The notes under the pieces are model-generated. The model was given only the letters and a program-made list of their open reading frames with translations, ran no database searches and was not told the DNA's origin. The position numbers were made by a program, and so were the translations under genes. From the NCBI GenBank assembly GCA_028820655.1, contig JAPPIK010000054.1:1-64000 (forward strand): 64,000 nucleotides of DNA, written 5' to 3'. This document shows positions 10,126 to 21,986 of the stretch, piece after piece (the first letter of the stretch is position 1; the number at the start of each line of letters is the position of its first letter). The stretch is from Candidatus Poribacteria bacterium (lineage in GTDB: Bacteria > Poribacteria > WGA-4E > JAJDTR01).

Positions 10126-11160
10126 CTAATCTGTCACGCTTGCATTGCGAATTATGCTATCGCGCCAACTAGTCAGATTGGTTGAAGTCAGAGAAAGGTC
10201 GACAATAAGCGGCAAGTGGTCAGAACCGAAATCCGGCCCCGTTCTCATATCGACTACGGTTATATCAGAACTAACCAGACAATGATCGATTGGAATATAC
10301 ATGAGTGGAAAATACGTTGGCCATGTCGGAAGAATCCCGAATCCACGGCGCGCGTTTTTGAGTCCCGACTCGTGAACAAATCGCGTGAAATTCCGCGACC
10401 ACATCGTTGTATTTAAGTCTCCCACGATCAATTTGGGAGTTTGAATCTCACGAAAATATGAGGCGGTAGCCTCTAGCAGTTCGTTTCTGTCCTCGGCAGC
10501 CTGCTCGCTAACTGGCGGGGGCGGATGCAATGCCAGAATAGTAACCCGTTCACCGCCAATTTCCAGGATTGCTAGGATGCTGGGATGCAGCTCACCGAAG
10601 TAAAATACCTCGGACATATGAATGGGAATGCGACTAAATATGCCTATTCCGAAGCTATCGTTCCGAGGCACTAAGTGCTTATTGGGGTATGAAAGTCCAA
10701 CGGTTTCAAACGACCGCACCCAGTGGTTACTTATCTCCTGTAGTATAAGGAGGTCGGGCAGTTCGGTCTCAACTAGCTCAATTAACTTTTCGTGTTGCTG
10801 ATTGAGTACATGCACATTTGAGAACAAAATCCTCAGTTCAGGCTCGCCTGATGCGGATAGATGTGATTGATCTGACGTGTACCATGGATATACTGCTATT
10901 CCGTTGATGCAAATTCCGAACAACGCGACGACAAACCACCGCCACCGGCGTGCAACTGCTGCTGCGATTCCGCAGAAGCATAGCACCGCAAGGTACTGCA
11001 CTTTGAAATGCGCCATCAACCCAAGATACCAAGAGATTCCTCCAAGGTAGCCTCCAAGACTTAACAAAAGGCAGCATAAGATTGCAATGTTAAGAAACCT
11101 GAACACGATTCGGAAATGTGAGGCTCTCCCAATATCATGATGGCTTTTCTTATCACACAT
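10126..11160 (-). CDS. Membrane-anchored endonuclease/exonuclease/phosphatase family protein
   Basis: The N-terminal ~95 residues form three hydrophobic helices. A periplasm-facing or cytosolic EEP domain follows, with the family's catalytic landmarks LLILQEI (metal Glu), VGDLNTT, a DH near PIDHCLV and a terminal GSDHLP. EEP hydrolases cut phosphodiesters in nucleic acids, lipids or inositol phosphates; the substrate here is not predictable. Its ATG overlaps the alpha-2-macroglobulin stop (TAATG), which implies translational coupling. The 344-aa length fits membrane EEP proteins. Confidence 0.9.
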   Translation of the reverse strand: MCDKKSHHDIGRASHFRIVFRFLNIAILCCLLLSLGGYLGGISWYLGLMAHFKVQYLAVLCFCGIAAAVARRWRWFVVALFGICINGIAVYPWYTSDQSHLSASGEPELRILFSNVHVLNQQHEKLIELVETELPDLLILQEISNHWVRSFETVGLSYPNKHLVPRNDSFGIGIFSRIPIHMSEVFYFGELHPSILAILEIGGERVTILALHPPPPVSEQAAEDRNELLEATASYFREIQTPKLIVGDLNTTMWSRNFTRFVHESGLKNARRGFGILPTWPTYFPLMYIPIDHCLVSSDITVVDMRTGPDFGSDHLPLIVDLSLTSTNLTSWRDSIIRNASVTD

Positions 11161-14100
11161 TATTGGGCTATTTTGATGCTCCCGCCTGATGCCACCGATG
11201 ACTTTGACGGATCGTACATAGCTTCAGCCGTGACAGGAGGCAGGGTGAACTCGCCCTGTGTAACGGCTCTCAAGGCGTAATAGAACTTCTGTCCCTTCCT
11301 TCGCGGGAACTTGCCGAAGAAAATGAGACGATCATCTCGGATATCAACGTAGTCGGGCTTAAAACGCTTGTTCGGCAGCCATGGGATGCCTGCACGAGAT
11401 TCCAATCTCGGATTCTCAATCTCGAATCCCGCCGGAAGCATGTCCACAACCACCACGTTCTCCAAATTGGCGGTCAGCGCCTTAACCGATATCTCCGCTA
11501 CAATCATATCGCCGTGCTTGAAAATACTCCCCTCAATCGGCTCGCCCGACTCCGAAAGATACCGGCGCCTAACCTGCAACTCCCTATCGAACTCCTCAAT
11601 GGATGTTCCGGTTTCGACGCCGAAAGACCGCCATTGGTAGTAGCTGTTTCCGGTGCCTTCGAGGCTCAACTGCACGCGCTTGCCGCCCCACTCTTTGCTT
11701 GCATACCGTTCATCCGTTGGCTCGAATTCCGCATAGCGTTCCCCGTCCATAGTGATTGTGCCCGTATACTGCGCGTCCAGCTCCTGCTCGAGTATTTTGC
11801 CGAGCGCGAGAAACGCAAACGCGTTTTCCTGTGTCGTTTGCCATCGACCCTTACCCGACGCTGCATCGGTCAAACTCTTTACCAGGCTTGACACCGACGG
11901 ATGATCGGGATGCACCTCCGCCAGCACATCGAGCATAATAGCCTGAGCCCGAACCGGGGAGTTGAAATTTCCGCCCGTTTCTCGCTTCTCGGCGACCGTG
12001 GGCGAGACATTTATGGGGAGCATCGACACTGCGGTATCAACGTCGCCGGATAATGCGAACGCGCCGGCCAGTTGAAACTCGCTGTAATCGCTGAGGGCAT
12101 CTAATCGATTGTTCTTCAAGTAGAGCATCGTGCTCTTCTCCGATTCACCTGCCGCTGCCAACACGTAAACGGCGTACGCAATCCGTTCAAGTTGATGGCG
12201 TCCCCTTACTTGGCGCTTCGCTTCCTGTTTTAGCGACTCCAGCATCATCTGATATACCCGGTCGGAAACCTGATAGCCTGCTTTCCTCGCTTCGACGAGA
12301 AAGTGTGCGGCAAAGATGCTGCCCCAAAAGTTCGTGTAGTTTCCGCCCGGCCAATAAGCGAAATAGTTGTCCGGCATCATCATGCTTTCTATCTTGGTGA
12401 TGCCCTCGTTAATGAAATAATCTGCGCTGCCTTTCGTAAAAACATCCGGCGCGATGGTTTGGGCGATGTTGTCAAAAGCTAGCAGCGGGAAGACCCCCGC
12501 TGTCACCTGTTCCACTCACCCGTAAGGGTACCGGAGAAGGTAAGAGATTCCACCGGCAAACTTCACCGCCGGAAACGATGACAGTGTCAACTCATATTCC
12601 TCGGTTCCCGGTAAGTAGTTCGATGGGAACTTGAAATCTGCCGCGCGTCCAGCTTTCACCACACCGTAGCCCGTGTGCGTCACGGGGGGTGTCGCCGGGC
12701 GGATTGGTACATCTGTAGTCATCCGCGTGCTTTCACGGTTTCCCTCTGCCGAGAGGTTGAAGGTGACCTTCCCGATCGCATCGTGAGCGGCAATTTCAAA
12801 AAACACCGGTCTCTCTTCGCCTGTATTGAGACGAATCCATTGCGCATTGTCCCCCAGAATATCGACGGCTCCTTCACGATTTAACGTAACCTCGAAGTCG
12901 CCGTCCTCAACCGTTCCGTTGAACACGCTAACCGGAACCCTGAAGCGGTCGCCTCCCGATACAAACCGGGGAAAGGTAGGAGTAAGCACAATCGGATCCC
13001 GCACGGTAACGAATTCCTGAGCCTTTCCAAATCGATCGTCCGCGAACGCAACCGCCATCAAACGCAAAGTACCGTTAAACTGTGGCACATGGAATCGAAC
13101 GACAGCCTCGCCCGTGTCACCCGTCGTCACTAGTCCGGACCAAAGCGATACTGGTTTTACTCGCGTGACACTGACCGTGCTCAAACGTTTTTTGCGCTGC
13201 GCATCGACTCCGTCCGTGCCGCCGCCGGTGCTCGACTTTCGAGTTACTGATTCAACTTCCGGCAACAGCGCTGAATAGCAATCCAACGTTTCGATATTCA
13301 AACGCCTCTGTCGAAAGAAAAAGCTGTGAGCATCCGGAGTCTGAGTGTTGGTTAACTGAAGGATGCCTTCATCAACCGCTGCAACCGTAAGCTGATAGGT
13401 TTCCTTTTTGCGCGCAGTTGCCGCCTCGACCTGAATGAGGAACTCGAGCTCCTGATTTGGACGAGTTTTCTTTACCGTGTCAATTTCGACTGACAACCGG
13501 TTGCCATCATCGTTCAACTTGAAAGGAACGACGCCGAAGGCTCTGACCGGCGCGTGCTTCTCCAACGAAGCCGTGGAGCGGATCAGGCTGGCGGATATGT
13601 AGGAATTGGGTTTGTACGCATCTCGGATTGGCACGTCGATCACGGCTGTGTTTTCCTGCATCATCACTGTACGGTGACTCAATACCTTGTCCCGTTCAAT
13701 AGTCAGGATCAGTTTGCCGGCAAATGGAGCTTTGATCTGCGCCTTCGCTATGTCACCGGGTTGGTAACTCTCTTTGTCCAAGTCAATCTCGAGACGGTCC
13801 GGATTTTCCATCGCCCAAGGCGTGTAACCCCAACCGGCCGTGTAAAATTCCGTTGAAGTTGACGAACCGGAGTCCAAATCCCGGATCTCTATCCGGTATT
13901 CGCCGTATTCGGTGGGGGCAAAAGCAAACTTTCCCACTCCCTCTTCCGAAGTAAGTGGAATCGATCGGATGATTTCGGCTTGCTTTTCCGACACATACCG
14001 ATAGTTTCCACCCCTGTCTCGTCTTAGGATGGAATTCCAACGAAGTTTGTACATCGTCAACTTTAAGTTCCGCTCGGGGGTCGGAGTGCCGTCTTTGTCG

Positions 14101-16547
14101 ACGGAGACATATTCAATAGTCATCTCCTCATTCAGTTTCGCATATCCTTCCGGTGACCGGCGAATTCCGACATAATGGGTGTAAGGGTGAATGGTCACGC
14201 CCCGGTAAGCGCTCACAGCGCGGCCGCCGGGCTCGCTGACGGTGGCCACAAATATGCCTTCCAAAGCGGATTGAGGCTTCAGTTCTGATGGTATGGGGAG
14301 CTGAAAGACTGTTTTCCCTAATTCATCAGTTCGTGACTCGCCAAGATTGATATGTCGCTTCTTGAACTTCAAAGCGGAGTTGGAAAACGCGAACGAACGC
14401 CACTTTTCGGGCGAAAACTCGCTCGCCTCAATGTCGCAACTGGCAGCGACTCTCCGATTGACCGCGGGCGGCCCAAAAAGGTTCACCGCCTCAACGCCAA
14501 TCGAAATCTCGTCGCCCAACAAATAAACCGGTCGGTCCGTCGCGAGCGTGACCTTGATACGGTCGGGCATAAACTCCTCGACTTGAAAGCGTCTGCGTCC
14601 GATCTCCTTGTCCGCAACATGTATCTTGGCAACGTAACCCCCTGTCTTGGCGTAAACCGGAAATTCCATGCTCAGCTCGAAAGCGCCCTCTTTGCCCGTA
14701 TGAGAACGAAATTCTCGAAAGATCCGTTTGTCGGGTGCCACCACCTGAATCTGAACCGGAAGTGAGGGTGGAGTCAGGTTGTCTTTTCCGCGCACGATAA
14801 TCACTAGGTTTGCCGTCTCGCCCGGTCGATAGATTCCCCTGTCGGTGTATACAAATGCCTCATAACCGTTATCCACGTAGGGTGCGCCGGCAACTTCAAA
14901 GTTGGTAGTTGACAATCTACGGCGATTCAACTCGATAAAGGACAAATCCTTCCCTTTCGCCGCGGTTATCATAAATGGAACGAATCCCTCAATCTTTTCT
15001 GATACCGACGAAAATCTCACAAAACCGACGGAATTTGTCGTGCCGCTCAGTAAGGTTTGATTGTTGTCGCTGATAACCTCAATGACCGTATCTCCGACTC
15101 CTTTCAGCGTAGACAATGAATTAACCCACACCAATAGTTCATCGGCCGTTCTTTTCGCCATAATGCCAAGGTCGGTAATCATGACCCATTGAGTGGCGTA
15201 GAGCCACCGTCTCTCCGTTTCGCGGGCAGTCACTTTGAAAACACCGATTCGGTCTTCCTCCAAATATTCTGCTAGCGAAATTGGCGTCGTGACCTCCTCA
15301 TTTAATACCGATTCAATCTCTATCTCGCCGCTGTGTAGAAACTTCCCGAGGTTGTTTGCCCACCGCGACCAACCCTGTGAACTCGACAAGAAAACAAGAT
15401 TGTTGGCATACACTTTCTCGATGTCGACCTTCACCTTGTTCACGTTGACCGTGGCTAATCCGAGATTCAGTTCTCCGTCCCTCGGAAGATATAACCCGCC
15501 GCCGGCGAATCTTACGTTCGGTTCAAGGTTCGGAATAGTAAGCGTCCTTGTAAAGTTCCGCTTTAAGGTAGTCCCATCCTGTGCGGACAGTCCTCTACCA
15601 ATTTTCACAGTGCGTCGGTCCCCCGGATTGAATTCGCCTTCAATCCGCAGGTAACGCCGGCGCGAAACCAATTGATACTGACTCTCCGGCTCAACGGTCA
15701 GAAACAGTTGTGCTTGGTCCGGGGCAACCCTCGAGTTGAACCGAACCTCCAAATAATGTCCTCCTCCGCTATCGCGCACGCTTGCATTCTCGACAACTAA
15801 GTGACCGCGCCCTTCCAACGCGGTTTTATTGATATGATCGTCAGCGAGACCAATTCCCCCGTTGACACAGGTGAAGTCCTTCTTCAATCTGAGGATAAAG
15901 CGTTGTTTATTCTCACTGCGTTCGATCTCTACTGTTTCTAGATCGATGATGTCCGATGGTTCCTCGGTCACCGCTTTATACGAAATTATCTTTCCATCCT
16001 CATACGATATCGCAAGCTTTTCCTCCAGTGCGGTAGGATCGACGGGATAGTTGAATTCAACCGTCCCGCGAATCCTCGCTCGGCTCTTTCTGCCTGCCCC
16101 TTGCTCAAGCGACAGTCGAGATTTTTTGACCTTGAACCGTTCGGTGGCGAAGGTCAGCGTCCGCTTTCCGCTCAATAACCGGTCCGGCGAGTGGCTGACG
16201 GTTGGAAACACTTTCGCTGTGTATACGGTAGAAGGAGCAAACGCAACTTCCGGGAAGAATCGGAGGCGGTCGGAGTCCACCCAACGAAATTTCCCCGGAA
16301 TCGCCGGTGAAAACTCAATCGGAGAATAGTCCAGATCCTTATCCAGTATGTGCTCCTCGACAACCGGATCGGAGAACGCGAAGGTGAGGTTCTCCCGTTG
16401 GGAGACCGTGCCTTCCGGAAGGATGGATTCCACGGTAAAGCGAGTCGTGTCCTTCACGTTCTGAATGGCGATGTGAACCGCGCCCGCCACAATTATCACG
16501 CAAAGAATGGCGATGATTATTAACAAATGGCTGGGATTCAGTTTCAT
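11160..16547 (-). CDS. Alpha-2-macroglobulin with in-frame UGA at the thioester cysteine (candidate selenoprotein)
   Basis: One frame of 1,796 codons, split by a single TGA at 12516-12518 (codon 1344). An N-terminal membrane anchor (residues 9-29) precedes macroglobulin domains with the diagnostic YTDRGIYRPGETA, then the A2M core SLWSGLVTTGDTGEAVVRF. The thioester-domain motif reads YPYG-[UGA]-VEQ where the family has YPYG-C-x-E-Q. Downstream, the alpha-toroid and final beta domain (VVVDMLPAGFEIENPRL) continue without frame change. Bacterial A2Ms trap proteases covalently through the Cys-Gln thioester. A hairpin with a GGUCUU loop follows the UGA at SECIS distance, so Sec at the reactive position is a serious option. 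Alternatives are a nonsense mutation or a sequencing error, leaving two fragments. AGGAGG precedes the ATG. Its stop overlaps the EEP start. Confidence 0.85.
12483..12502 (-). promoter_or_regulatory. Candidate bacterial SECIS hairpin
   Basis: Downstream of the UGA on the minus strand, CAGCGGG pairs with CCCGCTG (7 bp, five of them G-C) around a six-base loop GGTCTT. Twenty nucleotides separate the UGA from the first loop G. Known bacterial SECIS elements need a small loop with a G in its first two positions, about 16-37 nt after the UGA, and the E. coli fdhF loop also carries GGUCU. The hairpin could still be coincidental. Confidence 0.55.
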
Positions 16548-20466: not shown

Positions 20467-20520
20467 ATCTGAACGCAGCTATCCTCACCGATATTTCAAG
20501 GACGTGGTGAAGTTTCCCCG

Positions 20521-20946
20521 ATGACCCGACTAGACATCCGCTGGATTCAAAGAGCCAACAACTTCGACAAGGCATTCTCCCAACTGAAAGACGCTGTTGA
20601 ACTGGCATGCTCCCGCCAACTCTCGAAGCTCGAAGCACAGGGGTTAATACAAGGTTTCGAATACACGCACGAATTGGGATGGAACACACTAAAGGACTTT
20701 CTCGAAGAACAGGGGACAGAAAACCTTTACGGATCCAGAGACACAACGCGCGCCGCATTCAAAGCGGGTTTGATTGAAAACGGCGAAATATGGATGGATA
20801 TGATTCAAAGTCGGAACCTGACCACACACACCTACAACGAATCCACAGCAGCCCAGATTGTTAAAGCGATTCTAGAAGTATATTTTGTAGAATTTCAGGT
20901 ACTCCAAGCGAAATTCCAACACCTGAAAATGGAGAATTCCGCATGA
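20521..20946 (+). CDS. hepT: HepT-like HEPN toxin (HI0074 family)
   Basis: The 141-aa all-helical protein matches the HI0074/nucleotidyltransferase-substrate-binding group. It carries the HEPN RNase motif R98-x4-H103-x-Y105 (RNLTTHTY). In the HepT/MntA system this motif forms the toxin's active site, and the toxin is silenced when the partner adds AMP residues to the HEPN protein. The stop overlaps the next start by 4 nt (ATGA), consistent with an obligate pair. A family-C repeat lies directly upstream. The minor alternative is a substrate-binding subunit without toxicity, as first proposed for HI0074. Confidence 0.9.
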   Translation: MTRLDIRWIQRANNFDKAFSQLKDAVELACSRQLSKLEAQGLIQGFEYTHELGWNTLKDFLEEQGTENLYGSRDTTRAAFKAGLIENGEIWMDMIQSRNLTTHTYNESTAAQIVKAILEVYFVEFQVLQAKFQHLKMENSA

Positions 20947-21281
20947 GTGCCTATCCCCTACGCCAATCCGACTGCGGTTTGTCGGAATCCGTCATCCGGA
21001 AAATCAGCGATGTGTTCAATCACTACCCGCAAGTGGAAAGGGTGGTCCTATACGGTTCACGCGCCAAAGCGGTACACAAAACCGGCTCCGATATCGACCT
21101 GACCCTCCACGGCGGAACGGATCTGACATTACACATCCTGCTCCGTATCGCCGATGACCTCGACGACCTGCTTCTCCCCTATACATTCGACCTTTCAATA
21201 TTCCGCGACATCACCGATCCCGACGTAAAGGAGCACATCCGGCGTGTTGGCGTCACGATGTACGAAAAACCAACCCCATGA
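20943..21281 (+). CDS. mntA: MntA-like minimal nucleotidyltransferase antitoxin
   Basis: The 112-aa protein has the minimal nucleotidyltransferase signature GS-x10-DxD exactly (G38 S39, then D50-I-D52) in YGSRAKAVHKTGSDIDLTLH. In HepT/MntA modules this enzyme AMPylates the HEPN toxin. A third acidic residue is likely in FDLSIF near residue 85. It overlaps hepT by 4 nt and is followed by a terminator-like hairpin, so the two genes form a complete transcription unit. Confidence 0.9.
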   Translation: MSAYPLRQSDCGLSESVIRKISDVFNHYPQVERVVLYGSRAKAVHKTGSDIDLTLHGGTDLTLHILLRIADDLDDLLLPYTFDLSIFRDITDPDVKEHIRRVGVTMYEKPTP

Positions 21282-21297
21282 ACACCGTCAGACGTTG

Positions 21298-21330
21298 AAA
21301 CCGAGTTTTTCCCTCAAAACTCGGTTTCTT
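21298..21330 (+). terminator. Terminator-like hairpin after hepT-mntA
   Basis: A 12-bp stem, AAACCGAGTTTT (21298-21309) with AAAACTCGGTTT (21316-21327), has a six-base loop. It is followed only by TCTT, so termination from this strand may be partial. The symmetric A/T ends would let it act in both directions. Confidence 0.65.
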
Positions 21331-21530
21331 CCCTAAATCCTTGTGGCTTTATGATTCGGTTTAGCCGTCTCACCACTGACAACCAAACACTGGCAATCAA
21401 GGTAATCCCAAAATCTTATGAATCACAATTCAGACAATGCCCACTACCATCCGCCCAACACTTACCATATAATCTACAGTCATTTGTGAAAATCGTATGG
21501 ATTCTGCGTGACAAAAAAGGAGAAAGCAAA

Positions 21531-21731
21531 ATGTCAAATATTACCGAAATTCAACAAGCGATTCTTGCGCTTTCTGAAGCCGATTACCTTCAATTTAGGG
21601 GTTGGTTTAACGAATTGGAATGGGCAAAATGGGATCGCCAGATTGAAGTGGATTCAGAAAGCGGGAAACTGGATTTCTTGGTCACCGAAGCCCGTGAAGC
21701 AAAAGAAAAAGGCACGCTCAAGGATTTGTAG
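21531..21731 (+). CDS. Small antitoxin of a RelE/ParE-type module
   Basis: The 66-aa acidic protein contains SEADYLQFRGWFNELEWAKW and a charged C-terminal half (AREAKEKGTLKDL), typical of short antitoxins that pair with ParE/RelE toxins. ATG 21531 is chosen because AAAGGAGAAAGC sits just upstream; the frame runs further upstream without start support. Its TAG is immediately followed by the toxin ATG. Assignment rests on gene pairing more than on a strong motif. Confidence 0.8.
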   Translation: MSNITEIQQAILALSEADYLQFRGWFNELEWAKWDRQIEVDSESGKLDFLVTEAREAKEKGTLKDL

Positions 21732-21986
21732 ATGCATCGGACCACATCTCGTTTCTGGAGACATTTTGAGCAACTCCCACAACCTGTCCAGAGGGTTGCG
21801 AAACGAAATTTCCGCCTGCTCATAGCAAACCCTCAACATCCCGCTCTCCATTTCAAAAGGGTTGGCAAGTTTTGGTCTGTCCGTGTCGGGCTTGATTACA
21901 GAGCACTTGCCGTTGAAGACGGGGGAGATTTTATCTGGGTTTGGATTGGGAAACACGACGAATATGATCGGTTGATTGGCGCTTAA
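21732..21986 (+). CDS. RelE/ParE superfamily toxin
   Basis: The 84-aa basic protein has the fold signature of RelE/ParE toxins: helical FWRHFEQLPQPVQRVAKRNF, then beta segments LHFKRVGKFWSVRVGLDYRA and a final VWIGKHDEYDRLI. The pattern R-V-G-x-x-Y-R-A and the C-terminal W-I-G-x-H-x-x-Y-D are recurrent in this family. It starts at the base after the antitoxin stop, so it is translationally coupled. Whether it cuts ribosome-bound mRNA or poisons gyrase cannot be decided from sequence. Confidence 0.85.
   Translation: MHRTTSRFWRHFEQLPQPVQRVAKRNFRLLIANPQHPALHFKRVGKFWSVRVGLDYRALAVEDGGDFIWVWIGKHDEYDRLIGA

Follow-up and report, generated by a model that had tools for sequence, protein, structure and literature searches.

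The 64,000-nucleotide stretch analysed here (hereafter the window), positions 1 to 64,000 of contig JAPPIK010000054.1 from a Candidatus Poribacteria bacterium, contains a gene which, judging from its sequence, encodes a selenocysteine (Sec)-containing bacterial alpha-2-macroglobulin (A2M), a reading to which we give a probability of about 90%. The gene lies on the minus strand (16547..11160), as do all features described within it. Its 1,796-codon frame is interrupted just once, by a TGA at 12518-12516 (codon 1344), after which 451 codons follow. This codon, in the context YPYG-U-V-E-Q (where U is the predicted Sec), aligns exactly onto the Cys of the YPYGCLEQ motif in the Salmonella and E. 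coli A2Ms. The thioester position is occupied by Cys in all homologues examined outside the genus and by UGA in a second species. Insertion of Sec at residue 1344 is very likely on these grounds and those given below, and with the UGA read in this way the predicted product is a complete A2M of 1,795 amino acids. An initial annotation of the window had noted the single TGA at the Cys of YPYG-C-x-E-Q, the intact YPYG and V-E-Q on either side and the A2M sequence continuing in frame, and had argued that the stop hits the one functional Cys in almost 1,800 codons; all of this was confirmed.

The assignment to the A2M family is based on domain matches and structural comparison. The protein gives Pfam matches above cut-offs to MG2, bMG3, bMG5, bMG6, the bait region, A2M and bMG10, so that macroglobulin, bait-region and A2M domains appear in order, together with a thioester-domain fold. 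The closest solved structures are those of the Salmonella A2M (4u48, E 5.5e-126) and E. coli YfhM (5a42/4ziq/4rtd, E ~1e-121). We also modelled the 347 residues around the UGA site (mean pLDDT 81); the same Salmonella and E. coli proteins were again the top matches for this model, with complement C3/C4/C5 and TEP1 ranking after the bacterial A2Ms. The bait-region domain (A2M_BRD, residues 919-1065) is encoded at 13353..13793, whereas the C-terminal macroglobulin domain bMG10 (residues 1657-1780; 11208..11579) is coded solely downstream of the UGA. By analogy with the E. coli protein, an N-terminal hydrophobic stretch (16473..16547) is likely to be a signal or inner-membrane anchor.

The residues expected around a thioester are also in place. 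In the E. coli and Salmonella A2Ms, the Cys-Gln thioester is shielded by two Tyr residues of the thioester domain and by a Met-Tyr pair of the C-terminal domain (PMC4498604). Here, the CxEQ motif is found as U-V-E-Q, its Cys strictly speaking being replaced, with both Glu1346 and Gln1347 retained beside Sec1344. Gln1347 (codon 12507..12509) aligns with the CLEQ motif and would be the acyl partner of the (seleno)thioester. Both Tyr residues of YPYG (residues 1340-1343; 12519..12530) match the shielding Tyr1175 and Tyr1177 of Salmonella A2M, and Met1777-Tyr1778 (11214..11219) corresponds by position and motif to the shielding Met-Tyr pair of the CTMG domain. This last pair, which the second species shares, is encoded entirely by the part of the gene that follows the UGA.

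The UGA is followed by a hairpin, CAGCGGG-GGUCUU-CCCGCUG (12483..12502; apical loop GGUCUU at 12490..12495), which is predicted to be a bacterial selenocysteine insertion sequence (bSECIS). There are 13 nt between the UGA and the stem and 20 nt between the UGA and the first loop G, in line with the stem, loop and spacing given in the initial annotation. The bacterial model in a 2026 review demands a loop of 3-9 nt, an upper stem of 4-16 bp, a minimum free energy of -7.5 kcal/mol or lower and a G at the first or second loop position, 16-37 nt from the UGA (PMC13188914); the rule applied initially, a short loop with an early G at this same distance, agrees with it. The A2M hairpin fits the model throughout, whether the loop is taken as GGUCUU (6 nt) or GUCU (4 nt), with a stem of 7-8 bp and a spacing of 20-21 nt. 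The bare hairpin has a folding energy of -13.0 kcal/mol; any bSECIS-fitting hairpin at or below -7.5 kcal/mol follows 2.9% of the codons of the gene, and an equally stable one 0.4%. When the UGA and the next 46 nt are folded together the energy is -20 kcal/mol (z -2.2), a value matched by 8 of 200 shuffled sequences. The element resembles that of E. coli fdhF in being a short hairpin after the UGA with similar spacing and a GGUC loop (AGGUCU in fdhF), but its upper stem is longer and more stable.

Conservation was assessed against G001, the sole second representative of the genus (and family) available to us. It carries the same gene with the same UGA in the same frame, followed by the same hairpin apart from a stem A to G change that keeps the pair (A-U to G-U). 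The two proteins are identical at 1,465 of 1,794 aligned residues, with one single-residue gap. By Nei-Gojobori counts, dS between the genes is 1.17, with synonymous sites near saturation, and dN/dS is 0.098 upstream of the UGA and 0.067 downstream, values that point to strong purifying selection on either side of it. Codons +6 to +11, which hold the hairpin, are identical between the species while codons +1 to +5 have all changed synonymously; among 651 windows of six codons that encode the same amino acids in both species, 4.8% are equally conserved, so this is moderate evidence. Hairpins of comparable stability were absent from the two nearest Cys homologues and from four more that we checked, so that the proposed check of a UGA/Cys alternation came out as anticipated, at the same position and with the hairpin kept in the UGA-containing relative. 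The protein sequence itself points the same way. Among the Cys homologues of the order, TTS occupies +4 to +6 in 28 of the 28 checked and K or R follows at +7 in 27, whereas both UGA genes carry V-T-A-G at these positions. Residues that are otherwise invariant have thus changed where the hairpin lies, as though the protein had given way to it.

The genome (5.88 Mb in 61 contigs, 95% complete) encodes the whole of the bacterial selenoprotein machinery for which the initial annotation had proposed to look. The genes for SelA (591 bits), SelB (351 bits) and tRNA-Sec (76.6 bits, anticodon UCA) adjoin one another on one contig (C51), and selD (363 bits) lies on another, the 378-kb contig C22. SelD (L134:4613-5683, plus strand) has an in-frame UGA at codon 24 (CAGUASK) and is thus predicted to be a selenoprotein itself. 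A codon-usage scan of C22, which discriminates only weakly, yielded two further frames. One is a DUF3179 gene (L153:1050-2210, plus strand) with a UGA at a UxxC motif and a bSECIS-type hairpin; DUF3179 is a listed selenoprotein family (PMC13188914). The other is an uncharacterised frame of 403 codons (L142:9671-10882, minus strand) whose UGA lies in a C-U motif (DESCUANGKYF); a GGUC-loop hairpin comes after it. It has no Pfam or NCBIfam match and is a candidate for a new selenoprotein family. The hairpins of all three fit the bSECIS model. UGA therefore stands at known Sec positions elsewhere in the genome (SelD, DUF3179) while also serving as an ordinary terminator.

SelA is widespread in the order, scoring above cut-off in 62 of 71 genomes. 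Of the order's 73 genomes, 70 gave an A2M match, and the TGA is confined to the two of this genus; 80 named GTDB loci all have Cys at the site, a set biased by the fact that many of them were found through a Cys-containing peptide pattern. Most simply, Sec decoding would be ancient in the order, with a single change from Cys to Sec in this genus. As a separate observation, six genomes of genus g5 in family f2 (G005-G010) lack the orthologue present in most of the order and have just a distant A2M in its place (28-30% identity to the query).

How then might the stop codon be explained if not by Sec? A decaying pseudogene or a sequencing or assembly error might be suspected given that three other genes of the window each carry a single in-frame TAG, but the same UGA persists in the second species at a dS of about 1.2, neither half of the gene is under relaxed selection and there is no further disruption in either copy. 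These observations exclude both, and we regard the probability that remains as negligible. The three interrupted genes, in each of which coding continues in frame after the TAG, are a HEAT-repeat gene (7275, minus strand), a sigma-70/BNR gene (39791, plus strand) and a BlaR1-type (M56-redoxin) gene (50151, plus strand). Stray stops in three genes, which we assume to be these, had initially been counted against Sec. The stops are indeed present, but all are TAG and none is TGA. Pyrrolysyl-tRNA synthetase (PylS) was found in neither genome of the genus, which led us to reject amber (pyrrolysine) recoding, and the TAGs look like ordinary nonsense mutations; they carry no weight against Sec. Decoding of the UGA as Cys or Trp by a suppressor or reassigned tRNA would be hard to tell from Sec at the protein level, where a UGA/Cys exchange would look alike. 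It is nevertheless highly improbable, and reassignment was rejected, because UGA is an ordinary stop in this genome, ending 79 of the 190 frames of at least 250 codons on contig C22; the tRNA-Cys is an ordinary one (anticodon GCA), and a true tRNA-Sec is present with SelA, SelB and SelD.

That same use of UGA as a terminator lends some credit to the idea that it is a true stop here too, giving a truncated A2M or two separate polypeptides, and in this genome a GTG directly follows it. In the second species, however, the first possible start comes 42 codons after the UGA (45 for ATG), already past the Gln, which makes a split protein produced by restart unlikely. The downstream half would also be without the N-terminal membrane anchor, yet it has the lower dN/dS, and both a SECIS-type hairpin and the Sec machinery are present. 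Moreover, the A2M stop codon overlaps the ATG of the next gene (TAATG), which encodes an endonuclease/exonuclease/phosphatase-family protein according to Pfam (10126..11160, minus strand), and this junction is the same in both species, which suggests that ribosomes do reach the end of the A2M frame. On balance we consider a true stop very unlikely.

If Sec is inserted, what does it do? The mechanism that fits best, by analogy with the Cys-containing A2Ms, is a protease trap built on a natural intramolecular selenoester between Sec1344 and the side chain of Gln1347, in which selenium would serve not redox catalysis but acyl transfer, making the covalent trap faster. We regard this as probable, although with distinctly less confidence than the presence of Sec itself. 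SelB carrying Sec-tRNA-Sec would recognise the hairpin 20 nt after the UGA and insert Sec at residue 1344, yielding a full-length, membrane-anchored periplasmic protein in which Sec1344 and Gln1347 would form a buried selenoester. A protease that cut the bait region would uncover this bond; attack on it by one of the protease's own lysines would then trap the protease covalently. In the E. coli and Salmonella proteins bait cleavage likewise exposes the thioester, which can then link to protease lysines (PMC4498604). Retention of Gln1347, the YPYG Tyr pair and Met1777-Tyr1778 argues for the same bond with selenium in place of sulfur. In aminolysis, selenoesters are generally more reactive than thioesters, by about sixfold for one aryl pair (PMC7232547), so a faster trap is plausible, although it might also be more prone to hydrolysis. 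Of the two parts of the initial proposal, then, Sec at the thioester position is supported by our analysis, whereas a functional selenoester is still an inference. The competing possibility is that Sec is inserted but takes part in redox or metal chemistry, such as a reversible oxidation of the selenol. Redox functions are assumed for the majority of known selenoproteins (PMC13188914). Sec also withstands over-oxidation better than Cys. Against such a role, Gln1347, Glu1346, the shielding Tyr pair and the C-terminal Met-Tyr are all retained, and no resolving Cys of the CxxU or UxxC type adjoins Sec1344. We consider it unlikely.

Several points count against our interpretation of the gene as a Sec-containing A2M with a selenoester. 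Just two species have the UGA, which limits covariation in the hairpin to a single G-U-compatible change. Searches free of the Cys-pattern bias revealed no independent Sec A2M among the matches listed for the phylum (85 genomes) and for 387 graded relatives, and no further TGA among those listed for two other phyla (7 and 133 genomes). Finally, a selenoester would be less stable than a thioester, which leaves room for Sec to have a different role.

In its domain order, CxEQ site, shielding Tyr and Met-Tyr pairs and bait region the protein resembles E. coli YfhM (ECAM) and Salmonella SaA2M. It differs from them in having UGA/Sec for the thioester Cys and altered residues after the site, over the hairpin, and pbpC is not among the adjacent genes that we checked. 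Elsewhere in the window (20473-21983, plus strand), a pair of genes for a nucleotidyltransferase substrate-binding protein and a nucleotidyltransferase is followed by a ParE-like toxin domain; these are likely to be toxin-antitoxin modules.

The thioester of A2M and complement proteins is a classic reactive bond in immunity, and to our knowledge it is known only with sulfur. The gene described here shares with known bacterial selenoprotein families a UGA at a functional Cys position, a bSECIS within the coding region and Cys homologues elsewhere, but the chemistry expected of an A2M is acyl transfer rather than redox. The 119 prokaryotic selenoprotein families tabulated in 2026 (PMC13188914) include neither an A2M nor a thioester protein. 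Full-text searches of the open literature (subscription papers and unpublished annotations being outside their scope) likewise revealed no selenoprotein A2M, in keeping with the initial impression that none had been described. A Sec-containing A2M would therefore represent a new family of selenoproteins, and it might be the first protein to use a natural selenoester as its trap. If our reading is correct, this family would bring non-redox chemistry to a selenoprotein of about 1,800 residues, and would make it testable whether selenium tunes the speed and stability of covalent trapping. Because gene callers will presumably split such proteins at the UGA, further examples may be hidden.
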